NCBI GenBank assembly: GCA_038040445.1
Contig: JBBPIG010000011.1
Span: forward strand, 124,001-188,000
DNA: 64,000 nt
Reading direction: 5' to 3'
DNA from: Acidobacteriota bacterium
GTDB taxonomy: Bacteria; Acidobacteriota; Blastocatellia; UBA7656
This document shows, piece by piece, positions 22,276-56,122 of this stretch. The notes beneath the pieces were generated by a model. That model saw only the letters and a program-made list of their open reading frames with translations, was not told the origin of the DNA and did no database searches. Made by a program: the position numbers and the translations under genes. Numbering within the stretch: the first letter of the stretch is position 1; every line of letters begins with the position of its first letter.

Positions 22276-22296
22276 TTGAACACTGGAGGTGAAGCG

Positions 22297-25200
22297 ATGA
22301 CCATTGTGCCGGGCAGTCAGCTCGGGCCTTACGAGATACTCTCTCCGCTCGGCGCGGGCGGGATGGGTGAGGTCTGGCGCGCGCGGGATACACGATTGAA
22401 TCGCGAAGTCGCCATCAAAGTCCTCCCCGCTTCTTTCGCCAGCGACGCAGACCGGTTGCTGCGATTCGAGCAGGAAGCGCGTGCCACGTCTGCGCTCAAT
22501 CATCCGAACATTGTCACGATTCACGAACTCGGGGAAATCGGGGCCGGACGCTTCATCGTGATGGAACTGGTTGACGGACGCACGCTCCGAACATTGATTG
22601 ACGAAGGGCTTTCGCTCGACGCGCTGGCACAACTGGGCAGCCAGATGGCGAAGGCGCTGGGTGCGGCGCATGCGGCTGGTATTACACACCGTGACATCAA
22701 GCCTGAGAACATCATGGTGCGCGATGACGGCTACGTGAAGGTGCTCGACTTCGGGCTGGCGCGACTCGTGCCCACTGCGATGGATGCCGAGGCAGCGACT
22801 TTGCAATACACGCAGCCGGGCACACTCCTCGGCAGCATTCGCTACATGTCACCGGAGCAGGCGCGCGGCGAAAGTTTGAGCCATCCTTCAGACATTTTCT
22901 CACTCGGAATGATCTTCTACGAGATGGCGACGGGGCGGCATCCGTTTGCGACAGATTCGATACTCGGCACGCTCAATGCCATTACCCAGCAAGTACCGCT
23001 CAGCCCTTCACGTTTGAACCCTGAAATCCCTTCTGCGATTGAAATCCTGATCCTGCAGATGCTCGAGAAGGACGCGCGGCTGCGGCCCACGGCGGCAGAA
23101 GTTGAGATGGCGCTGGCTGAAATCGGAGGGCAGCGCCCGAGCGGCGAGAGCCGCTCCCCGGTCCTGCGGCCACGCACACGTCATACGGTTGGCCGAGAGA
23201 AGGCGCACGCGGAACTGCGTGAAGCCCTCGCTTCTGCTTTCGCCGGCAAAGGACTGCTGTTGTGCGTGCCGGGCGAGCCGGGAATGGGCAAGACAACTCT
23301 GGTTGAGGACTTCCTGAGTGATCTGCGCGCCGGCGGCCAGTCTTGTATCATCGCGCGCGGACGATGCTCCGAGCGCCTGGCGGGGACCGAAGCCTACCTG
23401 CCGTGGCTCGAAGCGCTCGATGGCCTGCTACGTGGGGCCGATGGGCAGTCGCGGACCTCGCTACTGGGTGCTGAATCCATTGTGCAAACGACGAAGCGGC
23501 TTGCCCCCACCTGGTACGCGCAGGCTATGCCGCTTCAGGCGGATGATTCTTCGGTGGAGCGATTGCTAGCGGAACGCGCAGCTTCACAAGAACGAATGAA
23601 ACGCGAATTCGGCGCGCTGTTGGAGGAAGTTTCCGAACGCCGGCCGCTGGTGCTCTTCTTTGATGACCTCCACTGGGCCGATGTCTCAACGATTGATCTG
23701 CTAGCTTATCTGGCGAGCAAATTCGACTCGATGAGAGTGCTGATCATCGCGACGTATCGCCCATCGGATATGCTGCTGGCTAAGCATCCGTTTCTGCAGG
23801 TCAGGCCGGACTTGCAGGCGCGCGGCGTGTGCCGTGAGATTGAGCTCGAGTTCTTGTCGCGCGCAGAGATCGAGAAATATCTCGCGCTCGAATTCCCGGA
23901 ACATCGCTTCCCTGCCGAACTGCCCGCGTTGATTCATGCCAAGACCGAAGGCAATCCGCTTTTTATGGCTGATCTCGTCCGCTACCTGCGCGATCGCAAG
24001 GTAATTGCCTCCGAGCAAGGCCGATGGGTGCTCGCACAATCGCTGCCCAGCATTGAGCGTGACTTGCCGGAATCGGTGCGCGGGATGATTGAGCGCAAGA
24101 TCGCGCAACTGAGCGAAGAAGATCGGCGCTTACTGGTGGCCGCGAGCGTGCAGGGTTATGAGTTCGATTCGGCAATCGTGTCGAAAGCTCTCGAGCTGGA
24201 CCCGGCGGATGTTGAAGAACGCCTGGAGGCGCTGGAACGCGTTTATGCGTTGGTGCGGCTCGTCAATGAAAGGGAGTTTCCCGGACGCGTGCTGACGTTG
24301 CGTTATCGGTTCGTCCACGTGCTTTATCAGAACGCGTTGTACGCATCGCTCAGGCCAACGCGAAGGGCTCAGTTGAGCGCGACGGTGGCCGAGGCGCTGC
24401 TCGGTTGTTACGGGAAACAGAGCGCGACGGTGGCTTCGGAGCTGGCGTTTCTGTTCGAGGCCGCGCGGGATTGGTCACGAGCTTCCGACTATTTCCTTGT
24501 GGCAGCGAACAATGCCTCGGAAGTATTCGCCCTGCAGGAAGCCGGCGCGCTGGCACAGCGCGGTCTGGAAATGCTGCGCCTGCTGCCGGAAACGGCTGAA
24601 TGCGCGAAGCAGGAACTCGCGCTGCAAACGATGCTGGGGCAATCGCTGATGGTCGCCAAAGGCTATGCCCAGCCGGAAGTCGAGCAGGCATTCATTCGAG
24701 CACGCGAGCTTAGCTTGCAACTGCACGAAGTCTTTCAGCTTTTCCGCGCGCAGTTCAGCCTGGCCATAGTTTATGTTGTGCGAGCCGAATACGAACGCGC
24801 TTTCGACCACGGCGAACAATGCCTGCGCCTGGCGGAGAATTCGCGGAACCAGGCTATGCTTATGCAATCTCACTGGGTGATAGGGCTGAGCCAATGTTAC
24901 ATGGGCCAGTTCGCCGACGCCCGCGATCATTTCGAACAGACCATAGCCATTCACGATGCTGCCGGCATTACCTCGCAGGCCTCCATGTACGGGGCAGTGC
25001 TCAGCCGTGCGCATCTGTCACGGATGCTCCTTTATCTTGGCTATCCGGACCAATCACAACAGGTGATGAATGAGGCTAACGCCAAGTCAGAGCGTTTGCG
25101 CCTTCCGGTCGCCGCAGCCAACACGCTCGCGGTGGCTGCTTACCTGGAAGCGTTTCATCGCCATGCGCAGAAGACGCTCGAACTTGCCGCGGCGACGGCC

Positions 25201-25776
25201 CGGCACGCCGAAGAGCACGGGCTGCCATATTACGCCGCCATCGCAATGATGATGCGCGGCTGGGCGCTGGCCATGCAGAGTCAGGAAGAAGAAGGAATTG
25301 CGCTGATCCGACAAGGCCTGGCGTCGTCTCTCGCAATCGGAACCAGACAGCAGCACGGCTACTTCCTTGCCCTGCTGGCTGAAGCTCTGAACGAAGCCGG
25401 GCGGGTAGAAGAAGGACTCGTGACGCTCAAAGAAGCAATGGATGTGGCAACGCAAACCAATGAGCCTTTCTACGAGGCCGAGTTGTACAGACTCAGAGGA
25501 GACGCGTTGGTGAAGGCGGGAGTCGTCTCGCCCTCAGAAGCCGAGTCGTGCTTTCATCGGGCTATCGAAATTGCGCGGCAACAGCAGGCAAAATCATTTG
25601 AGTTGCGCGCAGTAATGAGCCTCGCGCGCTTGTGGCGGGAGCAGGGCAAGCGTGAGGAAGGCCGAGGGATCCTCGCGGACATTTACGACTGGTTCACGGA
25701 AGGCTTCGACACATTTGATCTGAAAGCCGCCAGAGTTTTGCTTGATGAACTGAGCGTTGATCAGCCCTTAGCCTGA
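22297..25776 (+). CDS. Ser/Thr protein kinase-AAA ATPase-TPR signalling protein
   Basis: 1159 residues from the ATG at 22297, with GGAGG eight bases upstream. The kinase spans 10-275 (Lys41 in VAIKVLP, HRDIKPEN at 131-138, DFG at 151-153). An AAA/STAND-type ATPase begins at about 298 (VGREKAHAEL) with Walker A GEPGMGKT at 326-333 and Walker B LVLFFDDLHWAD. A winged-helix/helical region (about 550-700) is followed by TPR-type repeats to about 1150. No membrane segment or signal is seen, so it is cytoplasmic. The STAND layout suggests a nucleotide-controlled switch with the TPRs as the sensing or assembly platform. It resembles residues 1-880 of the giant fusion at 47299-52941 but lacks its binding domains. 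Confidence 0.92.
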   Translation: MTIVPGSQLGPYEILSPLGAGGMGEVWRARDTRLNREVAIKVLPASFASDADRLLRFEQEARATSALNHPNIVTIHELGEIGAGRFIVMELVDGRTLRTLIDEGLSLDALAQLGSQMAKALGAAHAAGITHRDIKPENIMVRDDGYVKVLDFGLARLVPTAMDAEAATLQYTQPGTLLGSIRYMSPEQARGESLSHPSDIFSLGMIFYEMATGRHPFATDSILGTLNAITQQVPLSPSRLNPEIPSAIEILILQMLEKDARLRPTAAEVEMALAEIGGQRPSGESRSPVLRPRTRHTVGREKAHAELREALASAFAGKGLLLCVPGEPGMGKTTLVEDFLSDLRAGGQSCIIARGRCSERLAGTEAYLPWLEALDGLLRGADGQSRTSLLGAESIVQTTKRLAPTWYAQAMPLQADDSSVERLLAERAASQERMKREFGALLEEVSERRPLVLFFDDLHWADVSTIDLLAYLASKFDSMRVLIIATYRPSDMLLAKHPFLQVRPDLQARGVCREIELEFLSRAEIEKYLALEFPEHRFPAELPALIHAKTEGNPLFMADLVRYLRDRKVIASEQGRWVLAQSLPSIERDLPESVRGMIERKIAQLSEEDRRLLVAASVQGYEFDSAIVSKALELDPADVEERLEALERVYALVRLVNEREFPGRVLTLRYRFVHVLYQNALYASLRPTRRAQLSATVAEALLGCYGKQSATVASELAFLFEAARDWSRASDYFLVAANNASEVFALQEAGALAQRGLEMLRLLPETAECAKQELALQTMLGQSLMVAKGYAQPEVEQAFIRARELSLQLHEVFQLFRAQFSLAIVYVVRAEYERAFDHGEQCLRLAENSRNQAMLMQSHWVIGLSQCYMGQFADARDHFEQTIAIHDAAGITSQASMYGAVLSRAHLSRMLLYLGYPDQSQQVMNEANAKSERLRLPVAAANTLAVAAYLEAFHRHAQKTLELAAATARHAEEHGLPYYAAIAMMMRGWALAMQSQEEEGIALIRQGLASSLAIGTRQQHGYFLALLAEALNEAGRVEEGLVTLKEAMDVATQTNEPFYEAELYRLRGDALVKAGVVSPSEAESCFHRAIEIARQQQAKSFELRAVMSLARLWREQGKREEGRGILADIYDWFTEGFDTFDLKAARVLLDELSVDQPLA

Positions 25777-26127: not shown

Positions 26128-28845
26128 GTGACAACTTGCCCATCTTGCTCAAGACCAGTGCCTCGCGAGGCGCTCTCCTGCGCGGCCTGTGGTGCGGCGC
26201 TGGTGGATAGCGCTACGCCAACCCGGATGCCGCAAGCTGAAGACATTGTCGAGCAAGCTGCCCTGGTTCGCTCAAAGGATTCCACTTCGGCTTCGTCCTC
26301 GACGAGCGAAGGCCGATTCGTCACCGGCGCGGTACTCGCCGGGCGTTATCGCATCGTTAGCTTGCTCGGCCGTGGAGGCATGGGCGAAGTCTTCAAGGCC
26401 GAAGACCTCAAGCTCAATCAAACTGTTGCGCTCAAGTTCTTGCCTGAAAAGATCGCGCTCGACGGGGGAATGCTCGCTCGCTTTCACAATGAAGTGCGCA
26501 TCGCTCGACAAGTAGCCCACCCAAACGTTTGCCGCGTGTACGACATCGGTGAAGTCGACGGATTGCACTTCATCTCAATGGAGTTCATCGACGGCGAGGA
26601 CTTGGCTTCGTTGCTGCGGCGTATTGGTCACTTGCCTGGAGTCAAGGCGGTCGAGATCGCGCGTCAGATCTGCGGGGGACTCGCCGCCGCGCACGAGATG
26701 GGTATCCTGCATCGCGATCTGAAGCCTGCCAACGTGATGATCGACGGGCGAGGCAAGGCGCGCATCACCGACTTCGGATTGGCCGTAGTGAGCGAGGAGC
26801 TTCGCGAAGAAGATGTCCTGGCGGGCACTCCCGCGTACATGGCGCCCGAGCAACTGACGGGCAAGGAGGTCACGCAGCGCAGCGACATCTACTCTTTGGG
26901 CCTGGTGCTGTATGAATTGTTCACCGGCAAGCGAGTTTATGAAACACAGAACATTCACGAGCTGATCGATCTTCACGACAAGTCCTCGCCTCCGACACCC
27001 TCGAGTCATGTCAAAGACATTGACCCGCTGGCCGAGCGAGTGATCCTGCGCTGTCTCGACAAGGATCCGAAGGCGCGGCCGGCTTCTGCCGTTCAAGTGG
27101 CGCTGGCCTTGCCGGGCGGCGATCCGCTTCAAGCTGCGCTGGCGATGGGCGAGACACCATCGCCGGAGATGGTTGCGGAAGCGGGTGAGAAAACCGGCTT
27201 ACGTCCTGCTATCGCCGTGGCGTGTCTGGCCGCCGTCATTGCCGGACTCATCATCACTGCTTTACTGGGCAGCAAGTTGGATTGGAAAGCGCAGGCGATG
27301 CATGAAAATTCGCCGGATGCGCTGGCGCACAAGTCCCGCGACATCATCAACCGGCTGGGCTACACCGACCGGCCCACCGACAGCGCCAATGGGCTGCGCT
27401 TCAACTCTGACTATCAGCGCTACGTTGAGCGGAATGACAAACCCGCTAATCGCTGGAGCCAGCTCACGAAAGGCCAACCGGCCGCCATTTATTTTTGGTA
27501 TCGTGAAAGTCCGCGGTATCTTCAGGCGATTGCCATGTGGAGCGGTGGATGGGTTTCGGAAGATGATCCGCCGCAGAATGTTTCAGGCATGGTGAACATA
27601 AGCCTGGATCCGCGGGGACGCCTGCTCTCCTTCACTGCCGTGCCGCCGCAAGTAGATCAAGCCAGTGGTGCGCTGCCCCTGCCTGACTGGACGGCGCTCT
27701 TCGCGGCGGCGGGACTTGATATGGCGCACTTCACCCCGACCGAGCCGAAATGGACGCCGCTCGCCATCTGTGACGCGCGTGCAGCCTGGACAGGAGCGTA
27801 TCCCGATCAACCAGAGATTCCGTTACGCATTGAAGCAGCCGCCTACCGTGGCAAGCCGGTTTATTTTCAACTTATCGAGCCCTGGAGTAGCCCTGGGCGG
27901 ACGCAAGACTTTCAGCCAACCACGGGGCAGCGCATTAGCTTTGCGATTTTTATCTGCGTATTCCTTGCCATCCTGCTCGGAGCGGTGTTAATGGCCCGCC
28001 ACAATTTCCGTCAGGGCCGCGGCGACCGCCGCGGCGCGTTCAGGTTGGCGCTCTTTGTCTTTGCCGTCAGGATGCTCGCCTGGCTTTTCGGCGCCAGTCA
28101 CGCCCCGAGTATTGGAGAAGTACCCAGCTTCTTCTTTCTGGCCGTTAGCCAGGCGCTGCTGGTGGCTGGTGTCCTCTGGTTGCTTTATCTCGCGCTCGAA
28201 CCTTACGTGAGGCGGCGCTGGCCAGACACGATCATCTCGTGGAGCCGGGTGCTCAGCGGCAGTCTGCGCGATCCACTGGTGGGCCGTGATGTATTCGTCG
28301 GCATCCTTTTCGGCATCGGTCAGACGCTGCTTTATCAGCTCGAACAGCTCGTCAGCCTCTGGCTTAACGCAGCTCCGCAGTGGGGAAGCTTCTTGGACGC
28401 CTGGCTCGGCGTGCGCTACCTCATTGCTCAAGGGTTTTTGACTAATATAGGTCTGGCGCTTGCAATTGCGCTGTTCTTGTTTTTCCTGATGTTTCTGCTC
28501 CGCGTCCTCACACGTCGACAATGGCTGGCCGTGGGCATCTGGGTCTTGATCGCGGTTGTGCTGAAAGTCTTGGGATCAAGCAATCCGATGATTGCCGTGG
28601 TATTTGCTTGCTTAATTCCCGCGCTTGACCTCATCGCTTTGCTGCGCTTCGGCCTCGTGACGTTCGCCATCAGCCAATTTGTTTACTTGCTTTTGTTCAG
28701 CGTCCCGATCACGACCGACTTTTCAGCCTGGTACGCGGGCAGTTCGCTCTTCACGCTCCTCGCGGTGCTGGCGCTGGCGGGCTATGCTTTTTACACTTCG
28801 CTGGGCGGGCAAAAGGTGTTCGAGGGGAAGCTGCTGGAGGAGTGA
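26128..28845 (+). CDS. Zinc-ribbon Ser/Thr protein kinase with multi-TM C-terminal domain, paralogue 2
   Basis: 905 residues from a GTG at 26128, preceded by AAAGGGA; this aligns exactly with the ATG of paralogue 1. The layout is the same: zinc ribbon (CPSC..CAAC, 1-25), kinase about 72-335 with all motifs, one TM at about 352-375, an extracytoplasmic region, about seven TM segments, and the tail GGQKVFEGKLLEE. The kinase half is nearly identical to paralogue 1, whereas the extracytoplasmic half is clearly diverged (e.g. SGMVNISLDPRGRLLSF against SLILDQRGRLVEF). That fits duplication followed by divergence of the sensing part. It is likely in the inner membrane. Confidence 0.9.
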   Translation: MTTCPSCSRPVPREALSCAACGAALVDSATPTRMPQAEDIVEQAALVRSKDSTSASSSTSEGRFVTGAVLAGRYRIVSLLGRGGMGEVFKAEDLKLNQTVALKFLPEKIALDGGMLARFHNEVRIARQVAHPNVCRVYDIGEVDGLHFISMEFIDGEDLASLLRRIGHLPGVKAVEIARQICGGLAAAHEMGILHRDLKPANVMIDGRGKARITDFGLAVVSEELREEDVLAGTPAYMAPEQLTGKEVTQRSDIYSLGLVLYELFTGKRVYETQNIHELIDLHDKSSPPTPSSHVKDIDPLAERVILRCLDKDPKARPASAVQVALALPGGDPLQAALAMGETPSPEMVAEAGEKTGLRPAIAVACLAAVIAGLIITALLGSKLDWKAQAMHENSPDALAHKSRDIINRLGYTDRPTDSANGLRFNSDYQRYVERNDKPANRWSQLTKGQPAAIYFWYRESPRYLQAIAMWSGGWVSEDDPPQNVSGMVNISLDPRGRLLSFTAVPPQVDQASGALPLPDWTALFAAAGLDMAHFTPTEPKWTPLAICDARAAWTGAYPDQPEIPLRIEAAAYRGKPVYFQLIEPWSSPGRTQDFQPTTGQRISFAIFICVFLAILLGAVLMARHNFRQGRGDRRGAFRLALFVFAVRMLAWLFGASHAPSIGEVPSFFFLAVSQALLVAGVLWLLYLALEPYVRRRWPDTIISWSRVLSGSLRDPLVGRDVFVGILFGIGQTLLYQLEQLVSLWLNAAPQWGSFLDAWLGVRYLIAQGFLTNIGLALAIALFLFFLMFLLRVLTRRQWLAVGIWVLIAVVLKVLGSSNPMIAVVFACLIPALDLIALLRFGLVTFAISQFVYLLLFSVPITTDFSAWYAGSSLFTLLAVLALAGYAFYTSLGGQKVFEGKLLEE

Positions 28846-43599: not shown

Positions 43600-44082
43600 T
43601 TAGTGGGTGACTGCGCGGTCTCGAGGCACGAGCCGTCGCAGCAGCCACAACATCAAGCACCCCGTCGCTGCTCCGAACAACATGCCCGCGCCTATCCCAA
43701 AAGTCAGATGGCCGACTATGTGTCGAAGGTGATAAGGATCCTCAGCCGCGATTGAGAACTCAGGCGCCGTGAACACATTCTCAGTCTTGCTGATCACCGA
43801 GTAGATTATGGCGATAACTATCACCCCTTGTTCATAGATGACCAGAAGCAGGCTCGCGACTACCACGTTCGGATAGCTGCCGAATTTCTGCGTGTGAATC
43901 AGCCAGACCGATATCAGGATCGCAAGAGACGTCGCGACAGTCACGCTGAACACGCGCACCATGCCGTGCGAAACCCCTGCGGCGTCGAGCCCCCACCTCA
44001 GCGCCCAAACCAAGGTGATGAGACCAAACAACGGAGCCAACATTCGAATGTGATCGCGTAGTCCGCGCCCGCAAATGTTCAT
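43600..44082 (-). CDS. Hypothetical membrane protein
   Basis: 160 residues with four predicted TM segments: LFGLITLVWALRWGL, VFSVTVATSLAILISVWLI, VVVASLLLVIYEQGVIVIA and the glycine-rich HLTFGIGAGMLFGAATGCLM. It ends with a basic RRLVPRDRAVTH. Its ATG overlaps the TAA of the SpoIIE-type phosphatase by one base, so the two are co-translated. I know no family; it may act as the partner of the phosphatase in the membrane. It is convergent with queA. Confidence 0.68.
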   Translation of the reverse strand: MNICGRGLRDHIRMLAPLFGLITLVWALRWGLDAAGVSHGMVRVFSVTVATSLAILISVWLIHTQKFGSYPNVVVASLLLVIYEQGVIVIAIIYSVISKTENVFTAPEFSIAAEDPYHLRHIVGHLTFGIGAGMLFGAATGCLMLWLLRRLVPRDRAVTH

Positions 44083-45071
44083 TATGTCTCCCTGGTCTCG
44101 CTGGCCTCGATAGCCCGCACCATCAATAGCGTCATATCGTCCTCGAGCTCATCGCCCGCCCACTTACGCACAGCTTCAAGCACTCCGGCCTGGATCTCCT
44201 CAAGGGTCTTGTCCAAGCGCTTTTCGATCTCAGCTTGCAAACGCGCGTCGCCAAACTCTTCGCCGCTCTTCGACGCCGCTTCGGTGATGCCGTCCGAATA
44301 GAGCGCCAGCAAATCGCCGGGCTGCAACGTCACTTCGCCGGTTTGGAATTCCGAACCCGCAAACAACCCGAGCGGCAATCCACCTTCACACAACTGCCGC
44401 CCGCGCATCGAGCCGAGCAGGACTGGCGCATAGTGTCCCGCGTTAACATAGCTCAGACGCCGTTCGGCTGTGCTCCATTCAGCATAGAAAAAAGTCGCGA
44501 ACTTTGAGTCATCGGTTACTTGATGAAGATGATGGTTCAATCTCTTGCAGACTTCCGCGGGCGGAATTCCCGTCTCGCACAGCGTGCGCAACAGGGCTTG
44601 CACGTTGGCCATGAGGATCGCCGCCGAGATGCCTTTGCCGCTGATGTCGGCGATCGCGAACACCAGGCGCCCGTCAGGGAATTGCATCACGTCGTAGTAG
44701 TCACCGCTGATGCCGCGCGCGGGAATGCACACCGCCGCGAACTCCAATCCGTTCTTGTCCGGCAACTGCCGAGGAAAGAGCGCGCGCTGCACCTCGAGCG
44801 CGAAGCTCAGCTCGGCCTCCTTGCGAGCCAGTTGGCGGCGGCTCGCTTGCAACTCGATCTGAACGCGATAGAGCGACACCAGCAGGACGGCAACCGCCGT
44901 CGTAGCTCCAAACGTCAGTCCCCAAGTTGCCAGCGCTGAGCCCTGTACCAGTCCGCGCCCGAGAAACAACAGGAGGCCCGCTCCCACCACGAAGCCGATC
45001 AAATAAACCTTGTCCCGAGCCTCGATGGTGAAGCCTGGCTTTGATTGTTGAATCGTGTTTCCTATTTCCAA
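44082..45071 (-). CDS. Membrane-anchored SpoIIE/RsbU-type PP2C phosphatase
   Basis: 329 residues. Two TM segments lie at about 24-73 (KVYLIGFVVGAGLLLFLG and the next). A coiled-coil linker is at about 75-95 (LQASRRQLARKEAELSFAL), then the phosphatase at about 100-320. Its motifs are GDYYDV, ADISGKGI, NAGHYAP and SDGITEA, which hold the metal-binding Asp and Gly residues. Such enzymes dephosphorylate anti-anti-sigma (SpoIIAA-like) proteins in partner-switching. The signal may come from the membrane part or the next gene; no anti-sigma gene is in the window. Confidence 0.92.
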   Translation of the reverse strand: MEIGNTIQQSKPGFTIEARDKVYLIGFVVGAGLLLFLGRGLVQGSALATWGLTFGATTAVAVLLVSLYRVQIELQASRRQLARKEAELSFALEVQRALFPRQLPDKNGLEFAAVCIPARGISGDYYDVMQFPDGRLVFAIADISGKGISAAILMANVQALLRTLCETGIPPAEVCKRLNHHLHQVTDDSKFATFFYAEWSTAERRLSYVNAGHYAPVLLGSMRGRQLCEGGLPLGLFAGSEFQTGEVTLQPGDLLALYSDGITEAASKSGEEFGDARLQAEIEKRLDKTLEEIQAGVLEAVRKWAGDELEDDMTLLMVRAIEASETRET

Positions 45072-47298: not shown

Positions 47299-50200
47299 CT
47301 AGCTTCGGATCCGAAGACTCGCATAATCAACCACAGTCGCACCGTAGGACAGCGAGAGTCCCTCAACTTCCGGCCTCGCAAACCGGTAAGTCTGCTCGTG
47401 GAAGAGAGGAAGCAGCAGGGCATCGCGCACGATAATCTCCTCGATCTGGCGGTAGAGGGAATGGCGCACCGGTGGAGAGGTTTCGGCTCGTCCTCGTTCG
47501 ATAAGCCGGTCGATCTCAGCAGACCCACACAGTCGCCCGTTGATTCCCTCGCGAGAGTGCAGAATGTTGACGAAGGTGTCCGCGTCAGGGTAGTCGGCGA
47601 CCCAGCGCGCCACTGCCAGGTCGACCGTGGCTCGTGTCTGAGCCTCCATCAGCTCGGCCATTGTCCTGTTTAGAGGTCGAATGTTTATTCCCTTCTGACG
47701 AAAGGCGGCTGAGAGTTCCCGGGCGAGCGCCGAGTATTCGCCGAAATAAACCGGGTTGAGTGCCGCGGTCAATTCAATCTCGGCTAGTGGTTGTTCCGGC
47801 CCCGACGAAGCCGCGCCGGTCATGCGTGGTGTGTATGCGGGATCATGACCGAGGAGACCTGGCGGGATGAGCCCGTGTGCTGGTATTGCAAGACGCCCCA
47901 GCGTCTGACGAACGAGTGCGGCGACGTCGACTGACTGAACAAGGCTCTGGCGGACGCCCTTGTCGCTCAGAGGCCCCTGATGCGTATTGAACGCAACGTA
48001 GTATGTAATGAGCCGGGGCGTCTCGCGGTAGCCCGGAGCGAAGTCGGGCTCGCGTCGCAATGGCTCCACGTCCGACGGTAACAGATCCGACGCCAGCGAA
48101 AACCTGCCGGCGCGAAACTCCGAAACAATGTCTGCCGGGGAAACACCAAAACTGAAAACCAGTCCCTCGTTTCTGGGATACCCCGCGCGCCAATAAGTCT
48201 TGTTGCGTTCAAGCTCGAGCCGGCGGCCCGGATCGAACTTCACCACCCGATACGGTCCTGTTCCTACACAACCCTCGCGCCAGCTCTCGCCAACTGGTTC
48301 CACTCCCTCAGGTACGATTGAGGCCCCGGGATAAGAAATCAGAGCGGGGAAGATTGATACTGGTTCGTCGAGTTCGATCGTGAATTCATTGGCGGTGTGG
48401 ATTCGAAACCCGGCAAGATCCCCAGCCTCGCCGCCCAACAGCGCCTTCGCTCCCCGGATCCGAGAGTAGAACCACCGGCACCCGCTTTCAGGATTCTGCA
48501 GCAACCGTTCGAAGGAATAGCGGACATCGCGCGCGGTGAGTCTGCGACCGTCGTGGAAGCGAACATCGTCCCTGAGACGAAACAGGTATCTCCTGCCTCC
48601 CTCTTCCACTCTGAATTCAGCCGCGAGCCACGGAATAATCCTGCCCCCGACCTCGCGAGTCAACGTCTCGTAGATGCTCGGAAGCACCTCTGACTGTTCC
48701 AGAGTCGACGACAGTGACGGGTCCAGACTTGCAATCACCCCGGCGATGGGAACTTGGATATTCCCGCTGGCAGTACGGACGCTCTCGGTCACGGTGGCGG
48801 CCGATTCAACCTTGCCTAGCCCTGAATAGTTCACGTAAGGGGCGCTGCCCCACAGCTTAAGCCCGCGCACTTTCGCGCTGGCGAGGCGGTGATCAATGTC
48901 ATGAAATAGTGGGAAGAGTACACCGGATTCCAAGAGAAGGTTCTCGTACTTCCGATAAAGAGACGCTCTGACGTTCGGCCGGCTCTCCGAGCGAGCCTCT
49001 TCCAATATCTGATCGCCTTCAGCGGAAGCGATGTAGTTGCGATAGAGGCCGACACGCGAGTGAAACAGACTGTGCGTGAAATTGTCGGGATCGTCATAGT
49101 CGGCGTTCCACCGCCCGATGCGCAAGTCCAACCCTTCATTGTGCTGGTCGGCGTCCAGGTACTGGGACATAGTGGGTGTCGCGATCTCAACTTCAACTCC
49201 CAGTTCTGACCAGATTGAGAACAGAGTTTTCAGAAGCGATCCATATCGGTCCTGAAGCAGCGGATGGACCGAGGCCTTGAGCCGGATAGGCGGAGTCACC
49301 TCTGCCGCACGCAGCATTTCAATCGCCTCTTCGCGTGTGAGCATATGGCGTCTCCGGCCAGGGTCGTGGCCAAGCATGCCGGGTGGAATAAGGCAGACAG
49401 CGGGCTGCGAGAAGCGTCCCAGCGTTTGCCATACCAGATCATGTGTACGCACTACGCCGGAGAGCGCGCGGCGCACCGACAGGTTCTGCCCCACCGGGCC
49501 CGTGAGCGAGTTGAACATCACAAAATAAGTATTCTTTCGAGGGGCCTCGACGAGTCCACCGCGGAAGCGCGGGTCGCGCAGGAGCTCTTCCAGGTCCTGA
49601 GGCGAGAGGTCGCGCGCAAGATCCAGCTCACCCGAGCGCAGGCCCGAGGCGATTGCTGATGCGCTCAGGCCATGGCGAAACTCAATCGCATCAAGCGCGG
49701 CTGGTGTGCCCTTCCAATAGTCGCGGTTGCACTCGAGGACGATGCGTCCGCGATCATACGATGCCAGGCTGAAGGGACCTGTGCCAATTGGGAGCGAGCC
49801 GCCGGTGGCGTCTCGCGTGATGCCAGTCTTGTAGTCTGCGAGCAGCGCCGGATAGATCGAAAGCGGCTCGTTGAGTTGAATCTCGAGCTTGGTGCCAGAG
49901 TGAGCCACCATGCCCACCAGGCCGCTTGCTTCTTGCTCCGCGAAGTCTCGGACACCACGGATCGCGGCCATCGCAGCGGGCAGCTCTTGAGAAGCCTGGC
50001 GAATCGCGCGCTCGAATGACTGCTTGACGTCTTCGGCCGTAAGGAGATGACCATCTTGGAAGCGGACGTGATCGCGCAGGGTGAGTATGAACGATTCTCC
50101 TTCATTCGCCACTTCCCATTTCTCGCAGAGAGCCGGAACGAGATTGCCCTCCTGGTCAGTAGCCAGTAGAGTCTCGAAGACGTTCGTCAGAATCTCCGCC

Positions 50201-52941
50201 TCCTCTACGAGTTCCAGGTTGACAGGTTCGACGGCCTTGACCGGGTTGGCGATTGCTACAACTAACCTTCCACCCTTTGGGATCTCTTCCAGTGCGTCGG
50301 CCTCTTTCGACCCCGGAGCTAGCCTTGCCGCCTCCTCAAGGTACTCATTTGCCTTCTCGTATTCGCCGCCGAGATTGGCGAGCGTCGCCCCTAGCGAGAG
50401 CAGATGCCTGAGGCTCTCTGTCTCTGCGGCTGCGCGAGATGCCTCCATCCCTCTGTTCACCCATCGAGCAGTCTCTTCGGTCCTCCGCGCCTGCCATGCC
50501 GTTTCAGCCGCCAGTACGAGCGCACTCACGGCGCTCGTGTGTTGATTCTCACGCTCGAAAATCTTGATGGCGGACTCAGCCTCTTTTAGCGCCCCGTCTA
50601 CGTCTCCAGCCATCCGATGCGCCTCAGCCAGAAGTATCCGGGCTTTTGCTTCGAGAGACTTTTCCCCTTCCCATTCCTCATCGAGAAACTCGAGAGCGGT
50701 TTTTGCTGAACGCGCCGCCTCCTCTGCACTGAACGCGTCAAGCGCAGCCCTGGCGAGGCGCAGACCGTACTCAACCGTCTTGTCAGGAACATCACCTTGA
50801 GAGAAGTGGTAGACCAGTTGCGGGTAGATGCGTTCCAGCCGTCCTCCGTGACGGCTCTCAATCCGCTCGGCATACTTGCGATGAAGCGATCTGCGCTTCC
50901 GCCGCGAAATCGCCGCGTAGAGGACATCGCGGACAACCCCGCTTGAAAACGTCAAACGGTCTCCGCGCGATTCCCGCTCCTCTTCGATCAGCCCGTCCTC
51001 AACGAGCCGGTCAACTGCGTCCTCTACAGCCCCCTTCTCTCCGGCGAGCATTTCCAGGTCGCCGAAATCAAAAGTCTTGCCAATCACCGAAGCGATCGAA
51101 AGAATCTCTCGCAGGTCCTCCGGCAGCCGCTCGATTCGCTTTTCGACCGCCTGCTGAATCGTCGCCGGTAGCGCATCCGTCGACAGCCCGGTCTCAGCGG
51201 CTAGGCCCCAGGATCCGGTGTTGTCCTTTGCGATCCCGCCGGAATCCAGCAGCGAGCGGACTAGCTCTTTAGTAAAGAACGGGTTCCCTTCAGTCCCGTC
51301 GTATAGTCTTTGTACCAAGCCTCCGGCCAACTCGGGCCCACCAATCAGTGTCTCGAGGAATAACCTGTGCTCGGATGGTGAGAATGACCCGAGCGCGACG
51401 GACGAAAACCGCCGGTCACCGCGAAAGCTGTCGAGCATACGGATGAGCGGGTGGCGGTTGTCTGCGTCGGTCGACCGATAGGTCCCAACAATCAACGTAG
51501 GCGTCGGTCCTAAGCGCCGGACGATGTACTGAAGTGCTTCGATCGAGACCTCCGCCGCGTGCAGGTCTTCGAGGAAGAGGACAAGCGGCCTTCCGCCGGC
51601 GATGCGAGTCAAAGTTCGTGCGAGCAACTCGAAAATGTGCGTTCGGTTTTCAGGCGTTTGCGACTCGCTGGCACGCGCCAGCTTCGAATCGCCTGTAGCC
51701 GCCGAACGAATGTCGCTGATTTCTGAGAGCATTGGGAACAGCGAGACGAGATCGGCTGCCAAATCTGAAAAGTCAGATACGTTACCCGCGGTCGAGGAGC
51801 TTCCCTTCAAGAAGTATTCCTGGATGGCTTCGCAGAACCCCTGATACGGAAAAGATCCGTCCTGTTCGGCGCATCGCCCGTGAAGGACCGTGATCCTGCG
51901 AGCCTTTGCCAGGTTTTCGAGCTCATCAAGAAGGCGCGACTTTCCTATTCCGGCTTCGCCGGCGACGACCACAAACTGACACTCACCGGCCAGGGCGGCA
52001 TTGAATCGCTGGTGCAACTCCGCTAATTCCTTCGCTCGCCCAACGAAGGGCGAGAGCGCCGGTCGCGGGATCAAAAGCGTGCGAGTAAGGGCAACCGATT
52101 TTGCAAAGTCGCTGTCGCGGAGCCTCGACCTGTATCGCCTGAGAGCCTCTGCAATTTCGCTGGCCTTCTGTGGCCGCTTTGCGGGGTCCTTCTCGAGGCA
52201 ACCAAGGACGGTCTTCTGCAACTCCTCGTCAATCTCCGCTCCCAGCGAACGCGGCGGCTGCGGAATCTCATGGACGATGCGGTACAGGATCGATTGTATC
52301 TCACCTGAGAAGGGCGGCTCGCCAACCAGGCATTCGTAGAGCACTGTGCCAACCGAGTAAATATCCGAACGCCCGTCGATCCCGCTCGCAGTCACCTGCT
52401 CGGGGCTCAAATAGGCCATTGTGCCGATCAAGGTTCCAGTCTTGGTGATCCGGCTTTCGGTTGCGGCTCGGGCAAGACCGAAGTCCATTATTCGAATCCG
52501 GACTTTGCCACCTTCCTCGCGCGCAACCATTATGTTTTCCGGCTTGATGTCGCGGTGGACCACGCCTCGCGCGTGGCTGTACTCGAGCGCATCCGCCACC
52601 TGGATCCCCAGGTCGATCACGTCGCCGAGCATCAGGGAGCGGTCCCGCAAAAAGGGGCGCAAGTTTGTTCCTTGCACAACTGGCATCACGAAGAAGAGCG
52701 CCCCCTCATGTTGGCCAAAGTCGTAGATCGAAACGATCGCCGGGTGGTCCATCTGCGCGACCAATTGTGCTTCGCGTTGGAAGCGCTGTTCTGTCTCAGA
52801 ACTGAGCAGCGTTGGCGGGATCAGCTTGATGGCGACGTCGCGGTTCAGAAGCGGGTCGTGGGCGCGATACACCACACCCATCCCTCCGCGTCCAAGCTCC
52901 GCGGCAATCTCGTATCGATTTGAGAGCTTTTGTCCGATCAT
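47299..52941 (-). CDS. Giant fusion: Ser/Thr kinase-AAA ATPase-TPR-two family-5 solute-binding domains
   Basis: 1880 residues from the ATG at 52941 (GCGGAGCGGAG upstream; a longer reading from 52980 is less likely). The kinase spans 10-275 (Lys39, HRDIKPEN at 129-136, DFG at 153-155). An AAA/STAND ATPase starts at about 298, with Walker A GEAGIGKS at 328-335 and Walker B LVLFLEDLHAAE. A helical region and TPRs run to about 880. Two tandem SBP_bac_5 (OppA/DppA-type peptide-binding) domains follow: about 887-1375 (GGRLVVAIANPVKAVEPVN) and about 1389-1880 (NIQVPIAGVIASLDPSL). Each has the family segments RDHVRFQDGHLLTAEDVKQS and RDDVRFHDGRRLTARDVRYS. No TM segment or signal peptide is visible, so the binding domains seem to be cytoplasmic ligand sensors joined to a kinase. 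Confidence 0.9.
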   Translation of the reverse strand: MIGQKLSNRYEIAAELGRGGMGVVYRAHDPLLNRDVAIKLIPPTLLSSETEQRFQREAQLVAQMDHPAIVSIYDFGQHEGALFFVMPVVQGTNLRPFLRDRSLMLGDVIDLGIQVADALEYSHARGVVHRDIKPENIMVAREEGGKVRIRIMDFGLARAATESRITKTGTLIGTMAYLSPEQVTASGIDGRSDIYSVGTVLYECLVGEPPFSGEIQSILYRIVHEIPQPPRSLGAEIDEELQKTVLGCLEKDPAKRPQKASEIAEALRRYRSRLRDSDFAKSVALTRTLLIPRPALSPFVGRAKELAELHQRFNAALAGECQFVVVAGEAGIGKSRLLDELENLAKARRITVLHGRCAEQDGSFPYQGFCEAIQEYFLKGSSSTAGNVSDFSDLAADLVSLFPMLSEISDIRSAATGDSKLARASESQTPENRTHIFELLARTLTRIAGGRPLVLFLEDLHAAEVSIEALQYIVRRLGPTPTLIVGTYRSTDADNRHPLIRMLDSFRGDRRFSSVALGSFSPSEHRLFLETLIGGPELAGGLVQRLYDGTEGNPFFTKELVRSLLDSGGIAKDNTGSWGLAAETGLSTDALPATIQQAVEKRIERLPEDLREILSIASVIGKTFDFGDLEMLAGEKGAVEDAVDRLVEDGLIEEERESRGDRLTFSSGVVRDVLYAAISRRKRRSLHRKYAERIESRHGGRLERIYPQLVYHFSQGDVPDKTVEYGLRLARAALDAFSAEEAARSAKTALEFLDEEWEGEKSLEAKARILLAEAHRMAGDVDGALKEAESAIKIFERENQHTSAVSALVLAAETAWQARRTEETARWVNRGMEASRAAAETESLRHLLSLGATLANLGGEYEKANEYLEEAARLAPGSKEADALEEIPKGGRLVVAIANPVKAVEPVNLELVEEAEILTNVFETLLATDQEGNLVPALCEKWEVANEGESFILTLRDHVRFQDGHLLTAEDVKQSFERAIRQASQELPAAMAAIRGVRDFAEQEASGLVGMVAHSGTKLEIQLNEPLSIYPALLADYKTGITRDATGGSLPIGTGPFSLASYDRGRIVLECNRDYWKGTPAALDAIEFRHGLSASAIASGLRSGELDLARDLSPQDLEELLRDPRFRGGLVEAPRKNTYFVMFNSLTGPVGQNLSVRRALSGVVRTHDLVWQTLGRFSQPAVCLIPPGMLGHDPGRRRHMLTREEAIEMLRAAEVTPPIRLKASVHPLLQDRYGSLLKTLFSIWSELGVEVEIATPTMSQYLDADQHNEGLDLRIGRWNADYDDPDNFTHSLFHSRVGLYRNYIASAEGDQILEEARSESRPNVRASLYRKYENLLLESGVLFPLFHDIDHRLASAKVRGLKLWGSAPYVNYSGLGKVESAATVTESVRTASGNIQVPIAGVIASLDPSLSSTLEQSEVLPSIYETLTREVGGRIIPWLAAEFRVEEGGRRYLFRLRDDVRFHDGRRLTARDVRYSFERLLQNPESGCRWFYSRIRGAKALLGGEAGDLAGFRIHTANEFTIELDEPVSIFPALISYPGASIVPEGVEPVGESWREGCVGTGPYRVVKFDPGRRLELERNKTYWRAGYPRNEGLVFSFGVSPADIVSEFRAGRFSLASDLLPSDVEPLRREPDFAPGYRETPRLITYYVAFNTHQGPLSDKGVRQSLVQSVDVAALVRQTLGRLAIPAHGLIPPGLLGHDPAYTPRMTGAASSGPEQPLAEIELTAALNPVYFGEYSALARELSAAFRQKGINIRPLNRTMAELMEAQTRATVDLAVARWVADYPDADTFVNILHSREGINGRLCGSAEIDRLIERGRAETSPPVRHSLYRQIEEIIVRDALLLPLFHEQTYRFARPEVEGLSLSYGATVVDYASLRIRS

Positions 52942-53074
52942 CTCCGCTCCGCGACTCCGCGCTTCGCGGGTGCCGCACACGAACTAGGGGACTTCCATGG
53001 CTGGGTCATAAGCGAGGGAATAGCTAGCGAGAGACGAGTTCAGTTCATCACTCATCACGCATCACCGAGCGGCG

Positions 53075-54124
53075 TCATCCAAAGGTCACCATCAACTCGC
53101 GCCCGAAACTAAACTGGGGCCGGCGGCGCTGCTTCAAAGCCTTCGTTCCGGTCTGCGACAGTGCGGTCACCAGGATCGGCATCGCGATCGTCGGGTCGCA
53201 AAGCACGGACACGGTTTTCGCGTCCTTAGCGACGCGGCCCCACGTTTGAGCTTCTTCAAAGCTGCGCCCCGAAGTCGCGCTGCTTTCCGGAAGATCGAGC
53301 CCGATCTGCAAAGCGTACTTGTGACCTCGCATGGTCTGCTTGATGATCGAGGCGGTCACTTCGGTTTGGTGTACGAAACTCTTCGGCTGGCCGCCGCCGA
53401 ACAATACTACCGACGTGTTCACCGACCTGGCCATGATCTGCGCCGCCTCGACGACGTCCTGGATGATGTCAAACTGAAACGGGTTTTTGCGATTGACGCG
53501 GGACGTCGCTATTCCAACGGCGATGGCCGAGTCGGCGACGCCGGGGCAAAAGACCGGCACCTTAGCCTTGTATGCGGAAGTGAGTATGCCGTCCTCGGTC
53601 GCAATTTCCGCAAGCTCGCGGCCCAGCAGATGCAGAAACTCGCGCGTCGAATAAGGCCGCGAATGGTCCACGGTGTTCGCAAAGTTCCCCACCCACTCAT
53701 CTGCTTCGCGGTACTCGTGCTCGCTCGCCAGGGTGTCATAGAACCGGCCGACCTGGGCTTCTTGAAGCTCGTCGTCGGTGACGCCCGGAAGCGCTTGATA
53801 GTGATAGCGTCCCAGCGTCTCGTGCAGATCGTGGAAAAGGTTCGCGCCGGTCGACACGACTACGTCGACAAAATGATTCTTGATCAAATAAGAGATCAGC
53901 CGGCGCATTCCGGCTGCGACCAGCGCGCCGCTCAACCCCATCAAAACCGTCGAGTTGTCTTCCAGCATTTCCAGCCACAGGTTATGCGACTCGGCGAGGG
54001 CCCGCGCCTGAAAGCCCGCCCCTTCCATCTTCTGGAGAATGCCGGCCACTGATCGATCGCGATCGATCTGAATGGGGCGCGTGGGCGCCGTCAAATACTT
54101 TGAGCTCTTTTGCTTTCTCATCAT
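53075..54124 (-). CDS. Deoxyhypusine-synthase-like protein (probable polyamine enzyme)
   Basis: 349 residues. It has the deoxyhypusine synthase fold pattern: NSTVLMGLSGALVAAGMRR, VVSTGANLFHDLHE, VVLFGGGQPKSFVHQ and SATSGRSFEEAQTWGRVAKD. Bacteria lack eIF5A, and such proteins are thought to make homospermidine or related polyamines from putrescine/spermidine. The Lys of the SWGK motif that forms the enzyme-intermediate imine in human DHS is Arg here (WGR, read from the bases at 53236-53244). The arginine decarboxylase gene is directly upstream on the same strand, which supports a polyamine role. Confidence 0.88.
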   Translation of the reverse strand: MMRKQKSSKYLTAPTRPIQIDRDRSVAGILQKMEGAGFQARALAESHNLWLEMLEDNSTVLMGLSGALVAAGMRRLISYLIKNHFVDVVVSTGANLFHDLHETLGRYHYQALPGVTDDELQEAQVGRFYDTLASEHEYREADEWVGNFANTVDHSRPYSTREFLHLLGRELAEIATEDGILTSAYKAKVPVFCPGVADSAIAVGIATSRVNRKNPFQFDIIQDVVEAAQIMARSVNTSVVLFGGGQPKSFVHQTEVTASIIKQTMRGHKYALQIGLDLPESSATSGRSFEEAQTWGRVAKDAKTVSVLCDPTIAMPILVTALSQTGTKALKQRRRPQFSFGRELMVTFG

Positions 54125-54223: not shown

Positions 54224-56122
54224 CTATTCGAGATATGTGTACCGATTGATGTCGGATTCATATTGCTTCATGAGCGAGCCGGCTTCTTCCTCGCTCAAGA
54301 ACCCGCCGGCGACGCGCGCGCTTATCATTCGCTGCAAGCTTTCCCACGCCTGGCCCTTGTCGTAGCGGGCTACCCTAAGCATGTCGCCGATGCGGCTTCC
54401 CTGCACGATCTTCTTGATGTGGTAGCGCCCATCGGTGTCGATGATCACGTGGGCTTCATTCGGGCGGCCGAACAGGTTGTGATTGCTGCCCATCACCTCT
54501 TGATAAGCCCCGACAAGAAAGATCGCGATGTAGTACGGGTCGCCGGTGAACGGGTGCAACTCGAGCACCTCTTTGACATCCTTCAAATCGACGAACTTGT
54601 CTATGTGGCCGTCCGAATCGCACGTTAGGTCCACGAACGTGGCGTAGTCGGTGGGTTGCTCATTAAGCCGATGGATCGGCATGATCGGGAAGAGTTGGTC
54701 GATCGCCCAGTGGTCAGGCAGCGAGCGAAAGACTGAGAAGTTGCACAGGTACTTCGATGCCAGGATCTTCTTCAAATCGTCGAACTCTTCTTCCTGAACT
54801 TTGGTCGTCTTAGCGAACTTCGATGCACGCGCGCACACTTCCCAGAACAGCACTTCGCCCTTCGCCCGATCCTCGAGACTGATCAGCCCGAGATTGAACT
54901 GCGTGTGCAGTTCGTCCTTGTGGTCGAGCGAGTCGTGATAGTACTCGCGATAGTTCTTCGCGTTTATGTCGTCGTAGAGCGCCTTCAGCTCGACAATCAC
55001 CTGGGGGTCGTCTTCGTCGACGCTGACCTCGGGCTGATCGTCGGCGAAGGTCTCTATCTCGTCGCGAATCGATGTGACGAACACCGCGTGATAAGCAGCC
55101 ATCACCCGCCCGCTTTCGGTCACCAGGTTCGGCTCCGGCACATTCTCGTCATCGCACACAGACTTGATGGTGTAGACGACGTCGTTGGCGAACTCTTGCG
55201 TCGTGTAATTCACCGACGACTCGAACGTGGTCTTCGATCCGTCGTAGTCGACGCCCATGCCGCCGCCTATGTCGAGGAACTCGACGTCGATATGCATCTG
55301 ACGAATTTTGGAATAGACCCTGGCGGCCTCTTTCATGGCAGCTTTGACGCGCTTGATGTCGGTGATCTGCGAGCCGATGTGAAAGTGCAGCAGCTTCAAC
55401 AGGTCGGTCATCTGGAACTCGCGCAGCAGGCGAATGCATTCGAGGATCTCCGAGGGCGTGAGCCCAAACTTCGCCGACTCGCCGCCCGAGGAAGCCCATT
55501 TGCCCGAGCCCTTTGAATAGAGCTTGGCGCGAATGCCAATGCTCGGCCGAATGCCGGTCTCTTGCGCGCGGCGGATGATCATCTTCAGCTCGTTCAGCTT
55601 TTCAACGACGATCACCACGCGCTTTCCGATTTGAACTCCGGTCAGCGCGAGGTTAATGAAAGCTTCATCCTTGAAACCGTTACAGATGAGCAGCGACTCG
55701 GGCACTTGTTCCAGCGACAGAGCCGCGTACAACTCGGCTTTGGAACCGCACTCGACGCCGAAGTTGTACTTCCCGCCCTCGCGTAGAAACTCCTCGACCA
55801 CCTCGCGACGGGGGTTGACCTTCATCGGAAATACGCCGAAGTGCCCGCCGGCATAGCTGAATTCGCGCGACGCATCCTGGAACGAGCGCTGAACTTTCTT
55901 GAGCTGGTTGGTGAGAATCTGTGGGAAGCGAAGCAGGATCGGGAGCTGAAGACGGCGCCCCTCAACGAGGTCGTCAATGAGTTCCTTGATATCGACGGAA
56001 CGGGTGTCGCCCTCGGCAGGGCGGACCGCAAGATGGCCCTTTCGGTTTACCTCAAAGTATCCTGCTCCCCAATTTTCCACACCATAGGTCTGAATGACCT
56101 CGTCCAGTGTGATGTTCTTCAT
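54224..56122 (-). CDS. speA: Biosynthetic arginine decarboxylase
   Basis: 632 residues, the usual length of SpeA (about 630-660). It has the PLP-binding lysine segment GVFPMKVNPRREVV near residue 100, a TIM barrel with HFHIGSQ and FLDIGGGMGVDYDG, and the C-terminal beta-domain with CDSDG. It converts arginine to agmatine and carbon dioxide, the first step from arginine to putrescine. AAGG lies seven bases before the ATG. It precedes the DHS-like gene by about 100 bases with a repeat between them. Confidence 0.96.
   Translation of the reverse strand: MKNITLDEVIQTYGVENWGAGYFEVNRKGHLAVRPAEGDTRSVDIKELIDDLVEGRRLQLPILLRFPQILTNQLKKVQRSFQDASREFSYAGGHFGVFPMKVNPRREVVEEFLREGGKYNFGVECGSKAELYAALSLEQVPESLLICNGFKDEAFINLALTGVQIGKRVVIVVEKLNELKMIIRRAQETGIRPSIGIRAKLYSKGSGKWASSGGESAKFGLTPSEILECIRLLREFQMTDLLKLLHFHIGSQITDIKRVKAAMKEAARVYSKIRQMHIDVEFLDIGGGMGVDYDGSKTTFESSVNYTTQEFANDVVYTIKSVCDDENVPEPNLVTESGRVMAAYHAVFVTSIRDEIETFADDQPEVSVDEDDPQVIVELKALYDDINAKNYREYYHDSLDHKDELHTQFNLGLISLEDRAKGEVLFWEVCARASKFAKTTKVQEEEFDDLKKILASKYLCNFSVFRSLPDHWAIDQLFPIMPIHRLNEQPTDYATFVDLTCDSDGHIDKFVDLKDVKEVLELHPFTGDPYYIAIFLVGAYQEVMGSNHNLFGRPNEAHVIIDTDGRYHIKKIVQGSRIGDMLRVARYDKGQAWESLQRMISARVAGGFLSEEEAGSLMKQYESDINRYTYLE

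Follow-up and report, generated by a model that had tools for sequence, protein, structure and literature searches.

A putative cytosolic STAND-type sensor kinase of Acidobacteriota with two family-5 solute-binding domains

Solute-binding domains of family 5 (SBP_bac_5) normally act outside the cytoplasm. What could two of them do at the end of a protein kinase that does not appear to leave it? This question is raised by a single gene in the window, by which we mean the whole stretch of 64,000 nucleotides of acidobacterial DNA analysed here. The open reading frame 47299-52941 on the minus strand encodes 1880 amino acids plus a stop codon. An earlier note had described kinase motifs, a Walker-A/B ATPase, a TPR-like region and two SBP_bac_5 domains in this one frame, and Pfam, motif inspection and AF2 models bear out this description. 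The product, from a soil bacterium, is probably a large switch protein that responds to small intracellular peptides or comparable molecules. Its features are as follows:

47299..52941, minus strand: whole gene, protein P0001, kinase - STAND-like NOD - TPR arm - SBP1 - SBP2; uninterrupted frame, colinear homologues, purifying selection in two close orthologues
52159..52914, minus strand: Hanks-type Ser/Thr kinase, residues 10-261, effector; Pfam PF00069 (2e-51), all catalytic motifs intact, nearest fold PknB
51487..52050, minus strand: AAA_16 nucleotide-binding domain, residues 298-485; Pfam PF13191 (3e-23), Walker A and Walker B
51280..51288, minus strand: GNP (GxP-type) motif of the STAND-like switch, residues 552-554 in TEGNPFFTKEL; conserved with few substitutions in 19 aligned members
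50947..51120, minus strand: winged-helix-like segment after the ATPase, residues 608-665, H-E-H-H-E-E in the AF2 model
50323..50904, minus strand: TPR-like helical arm, residues 680-873; antiparallel helix pairs in the AF2 model, TPR profile match
48808..50286, minus strand: SBP1, first complete family-5 solute-binding domain, residues 886-1378; PF00496, full-length MppA/OppA/DppA matches, model, own clade
49099..49101, minus strand: codon of D1281 in SBP1 (RWNADYDDPD), equivalent of OppA Asp419 by alignment to E. coli OppA
47302..48774, minus strand: SBP2, second complete family-5 solute-binding domain, residues 1390-1880; PF00496, full-length OppA/MppA matches, model, SBP2 clade
47593..47595, minus strand: codon of D1783 in SBP2 (RWVADYPDAD), equivalent of OppA Asp419 by the same alignment

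Kinase, STAND-like switch and predicted location

An alternative GTG start at 52980 would add 13 residues. We favour the ATG at 52941 because MIGQ.LSNRY also opens close orthologues. Chimerism or an assembly fusion was ruled out by colinear homologues in many assemblies, which are mostly 45-72% identical within the SBPs. For AF2 modelling, the protein was divided into residues 1-885 (kinase-NOD-TPR) and residues 886-1880 (SBP1-SBP2). The model of the first part (mean pLDDT 81, low pTM of 0.39) bears on the single domains, not on their mutual arrangement.

All kinase motifs (GRGGMG, VAIK, HRDIKPEN, DFG and SPE) are present, and across the family the kinase and ATPase motifs are intact. In a fold search with the kinase-NOD-TPR model, PknB was the nearest fold (TMt 0.90); the matches were dominated by kinases and are silent on the NOD. 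The PASTA kinase profile NF033483 matched the kinase part alone and stayed below its cut-off (317.8 versus 450 bits).

Behind the kinase, Walker A (GEAGIGKS, 51937-51960, minus strand) and Walker B (LVLFLEDLH) are conserved in the family. The winged-helix-like segment was modelled with pLDDT values of about 63-90 per 10 residues, and the order of elements suggests that it represents the WHD. For the TPR-like region, a profile match to a TPR protein was obtained (E 4e-4), with no Pfam match at E 0.001. Taken together, the AAA_16 domain, the GNP motif and the modelled winged helix point to a STAND-like switch, with the TPR arm and the SBPs C-terminal to the NOD and the kinase, or Trans_reg_C in some relatives, N-terminal to it. 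The earlier suggestion that the AAA/TPR part serves as a switch is supported in this STAND-like form.

This layout resembles the STAND regulators of the MalT/PknK type, large cytosolic proteins composed of an effector, an ATPase-winged-helix switch and a TPR-like arm, with a kinase as effector in PknK (PMC4381067). PknK is likened here by description. Unlike in these regulators, the putative sensor consists of two family-5 SBPs following the TPR part, and the NOD has no clear relation to MalT: profile comparison with the E. coli protein gave weak similarity. The kinase-AAA-TPR core is also shared with the TOMM system kinase/cyclase fusion TIGR03903, which matches residues 297-882. However, the score of 293.6 bits falls short of the cut-off of 705.75, the cyclase is absent and SBPs are present instead.

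Nothing in the sequence suggests export. Kyte-Doolittle means over 19 residues do not exceed 1.22, indicating that a membrane segment is absent, compared with about 2.2-3.0 for the transmembrane hairpins of the related MCP-SBP proteins described below. No signal peptide or lipobox was found in the 1880-residue protein, short polar linkers lead into SBP1 and SBP2, and none of 17 family members checked has a membrane segment. Hydropathy therefore agrees with the previous description of a cytoplasmic protein lacking a signal peptide and any membrane segment, including between TPR and SBP domains, and a cytosolic location in vivo is predicted. The SBPs also do not look like transporter components: in addition to the missing signal peptide or lipobox, neither a conserved transporter neighbour nor a fixed operon partner was found around the family loci.

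Two solute-binding domains with distinct pockets

SBP_bac_5 (PF00496) was found twice (1.5e-112, 376.8 bits over two stretches, gathering cut-off 32.4). Both domains are full length with about 490 residues each and were modelled with a mean pLDDT of 87 (residues 886-1880). Among solved structures, they come closest to MppA, a Mesorhizobium peptide-binding protein, OppA and further peptide binders. OppA, MppA and DppE share the same full-length fold, are among the best PDB matches and carry the Asp419 equivalent, but they are exported parts of transporters, whereas SBP1 and SBP2 are fused to the switch and predicted to be cytosolic. In a tree of SBP domains, the SBP1 domains group together without exception (SH-aLRT 100), SBP2 and the single SBPs of other members make up a second clade (99), and the two are joined at 98-100. 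This sister relationship indicates one ancient tandem duplication before the family spread, and SBP1 appears to have been lost afterwards in some members.

OppA Asp419, which binds the amino terminus of the peptide in OppA, has an equivalent in 16 of 19 SBP1 domains and in 18 of 20 SBP2 or single domains; in a few domains it is replaced by Glu, Ser or Ala. Both SBPs share this Asp with OppA, MppA and DppA, and it is missing from NikA and SgrR. Near the Asp lies a conserved Arg (RWxADY) that is absent from OppA. Among provisional pocket columns, chosen by OppA contacts and not on a structure, R415, W416, Y420 and H484 (OppA numbering) are almost invariant, and SBP1 consistently differs from SBP2 at positions 161 (D versus Y/H), 245 (R versus S/W), 421 (D versus P) and 487 (D versus T/S). 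Thus, each domain has kept its own conserved binding-pocket pattern, as the earlier note had proposed to examine by aligning the two. The steady differences suggest different ligands; together with the early divergence of the domains they support the view that the two SBPs may bind different molecules.

Of the ligands considered in the earlier description, nickel or haem-like compounds found no support. The NikA equivalog TIGR02294 scores 142.4 bits against a cut-off of 393, and the pocket Asp is not of the NikA type. The SgrR equivalog NF010149 is similarly distant (39.7 versus 476 bits), so that neither a nickel- nor an SgrR-type ligand domain is supported by equivalog scores and pocket Asp. 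Short peptides, or a different solute bearing a free amino group, are the likeliest candidates for the ligands. Decay of the SBPs was ruled out by their dN/dS of 0.10-0.13.

Distribution, variants and relatives of the family

A search of relatives recovered full-length homologues in one order-level and one class-level relative. A full-length copy is absent from the sampled genomes of the same genus and from most sampled genomes of the same family, indicating a patchy distribution. Scanning 84,980 species genomes yielded 75 loci. The first 24 of them (L051-L074) belong to the kinase-STAND-SBP family; as two short ATPase motifs were used, at least this number exists. These 24 loci belong to Pyrinomonadaceae, other Blastocatellia, acidobacterial groups 7 and 22, Thermoanaerobaculia and two Myxococcota. 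When 297 genomes were sampled evenly across the phylum Acidobacteriota, long STAND-SBP frames turned up in 11, some of which hold more than one copy. Among 189 sampled genomes of the phylum of the Polyangia genome, only that genome, the centre of the search, was positive.

Between the orthologues L057 and L074, dN/dS is about 0.05 for the kinase, 0.08 for the NOD, 0.10 for both TPR and SBP1, and 0.13 for SBP2, indicating that all five parts are maintained by purifying selection. The N-terminus is more variable between family members. At L055 (genome G013) and L156, a Trans_reg_C DNA-binding winged helix precedes the same AAA-TPR-SBP chassis in the place of the kinase. The kinase of L040 (genome G007) is truncated and accompanied by one SBP, and L209 combines a kinase with one SBP. 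A second frame of G007 (L039:4101-8360), which ends at a contig edge, reads HRALRPEN for HRDxKPEN and is a probable pseudokinase. With the kinase swapped, truncated or degenerate in relatives, the N-terminus looks like an exchangeable effector and the SBPs like the constant sensor. This supports the kinase as output, as had been proposed before, Trans_reg_C taking its place in relatives; the degenerate and truncated paralogues indicate that kinase output is not universal.

Other proteins carry related SBPs. Fusions of MCPsignal to SBP_bac_5 are widespread in Acidobacteriota (L043:3471-6566 in the same genome, L044-L046, L158-L161, L165-L167, L173 and L174), and Pfam confirmed MCPsignal in three of the fusions (P0004, P0005 and L165). 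MCPsignal precedes the C-terminal SBP_bac_5; some of these proteins have no membrane segment and others an N-terminal hairpin, which would leave both domains in the cytoplasm. They can be described as chemoreceptor-like proteins with a predicted cytosolic peptide-binding domain. Their SBPs form the branch nearest to the kinase-STAND-SBP family, with moderate support (SH-aLRT 81-89), and share the cytoplasmic-side position; they differ in the chemotaxis-type signalling domain, the single SBP and, in many, the membrane hairpin. Chloroflexota encode cyclase-AAA_16-TPR-SBP_bac_5 proteins. In L230:1995-7016, CHAT, a cyclase-like domain, AAA_16, TPR and SBP_bac_5 occur in one frame of 1674 residues. 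The order of effector, AAA_16, TPR and SBP is the same as here, but the effector is a cyclase (in one case with CHAT) and the single SBP falls on another tree branch. A common origin of the Chloroflexota and Acidobacteriota SBPs was not rejected (AU p 0.32); we favour a separate origin of the Chloroflexota form. The long frames L162-L164, which also entered the SBP tree, have an internal signal segment and the look of ordinary lipoproteins, and were not counted as fusions.

A ligand-driven switch and its alternatives

In MalT, the inducer pulls the arm away and the NOD opens (PMC4381067). By analogy, we think it probable, though well short of certain, that this is a soluble sensor kinase of the STAND type, in which the tandem SBPs bind a cytosolic peptide-like solute, release the ATPase/TPR lock and activate the kinase. 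At rest, the TPR arm and the tandem SBPs would hold the NOD closed. Binding of a cytosolic ligand by one or both SBPs would lead to Venus-flytrap closure, which would pull the arm off the NOD. The freed NOD could then exchange ADP for ATP and oligomerise, and the clustering would bring kinase domains together for autophosphorylation and phosphorylation of targets. We infer the ligand class, the direction of regulation, oligomerisation, the phosphorylation targets and the reporting of binding by phosphorylation. Trans_reg_C in place of the kinase on the NOD-TPR-SBP chassis is expected if the SBPs are the input and the N-terminus the output, and we also count in favour the other cytosolic-SBP designs, MCP-SBP in the same genomes and cyclase-AAA-TPR-SBP in Chloroflexota.

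Alternatively, the SBPs could be scaffolds that no longer bind small molecules, the switch being controlled by contact with a partner protein such as a transporter subunit or a kinase target. STAND sensors of the repeat type often bind proteins, and the loss of the key Asp in a few members would fit. However, both SBPs are full length and constrained, and the four almost invariant pocket positions together with the consistent SBP1/SBP2 differences argue against this reading, and we consider mere scaffolds rather unlikely. A placement of the SBPs in the periplasm, their usual site of action, with the kinase in the cytoplasm would require an unrecognised membrane passage. This we regard as highly improbable: a hidden passage was ruled out on hydropathy, with no hydrophobic segment in any of the 17 members, short and polar linkers, and the kinase at the N-terminus.

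Two further readings keep a cytosolic ligand and change its meaning. The STAND layout with exchangeable effectors, the absence from most same-family genomes sampled, and the Chloroflexota relative with CHAT protease-like and cyclase-like domains before AAA-TPR-SBP would suit an NLR-like immune or cell-death receptor, whose SBPs detect an infection- or damage-related cytosolic peptide and whose N-terminal effector triggers defence. Yet the strongly conserved pocket residues do not suggest an arms race, no defence genes were seen near the family loci, and a defence system was rejected because PADLOC matches cover generic kinase or cyclase domains alone; such a role seems unlikely to us. We are equally doubtful about a nutrient regulator of the SgrR type, in which a sugar, sugar phosphate, amino acid or other metabolite is bound and the kinase adjusts metabolism. 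Family 5 also takes non-peptide ligands such as agrocinopines, whose binding protein is in the SBP match list, and SgrR and DsvR carry a C-terminal SBP_bac_5 in the cytoplasm (PMC13060122), presumably as sensor, with an N-terminal effector. They have one SBP fused directly to a DNA-binding domain, however, without ATPase switch or kinase, and their SBP is not closely related, as the low equivalog score and the missing Asp of SgrR illustrate.

The ligand-driven sensor kinase thus combines ingredients that each have a precedent, MalT/PknK for the STAND part and SgrR for a cytosolic SBP, in an apparently new way. SBP-type domains are known more generally as cytosolic sensors (PMC9602780), and in 2005 the fusion of a kinase with a Glu/Gln-type SBP was listed for Streptomyces (PMC1262709). 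Neither SBP_bac_5 with AAA_16 nor SBP_bac_5 as sensor of a STAND kinase was found in the searchable literature, subscription papers and domain databases lying outside the search. The earlier claim of an undescribed architecture was overstated, since the ingredients are known and the family, which is small, scattered and apparently undescribed, spans several phyla; it is the SBP_bac_5-STAND combination that appears new. More tentatively, there may be a bacterial class of NLR-like cytosolic peptide receptors with SBP sensors on STAND switches, exchangeable outputs (kinase, DNA-binding, cyclase, CHAT) and more than one origin, whose Acidobacteriota form would read two different ligands through an ancient SBP pair; we see this as a possibility with the odds against it. 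If the favoured mechanism is true, ATP-driven signalling switches of the cell interior have taken over as their sensor the domain with which nutrient importers catch peptides. STAND ligands are hard to find, and family-5 SBPs are soluble, crystallisable and often retain their ligand through purification. The family would then offer a direct route to a STAND ligand and to the relay from ligand through switch to kinase.

Several neighbouring genes deserve mention. Downstream of the kinase gene, at a distance of 2.2 kb, the window encodes a SpoIIE-type phosphatase (44082-45071). Comparable phosphatases occur close to L070 and L071, making three loci in all; they may be partners or present by chance. 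Immediately upstream, and in the same orientation, lies a polyamine pair consisting of a deoxyhypusine-synthase-family gene (53075-54124) and a gene for a biosynthetic arginine decarboxylase (54224-56122). The pair is not conserved beside homologues, but polyamines are candidate ligands. The window also encodes a kinase-AAA-TPR protein without SBP (22276-25776, 1166 residues), flanked by two similar Ser/Thr kinases of about 905 residues (19422-22145 and 26128-28845) with apparent membrane segments, which look like a duplicated pair.
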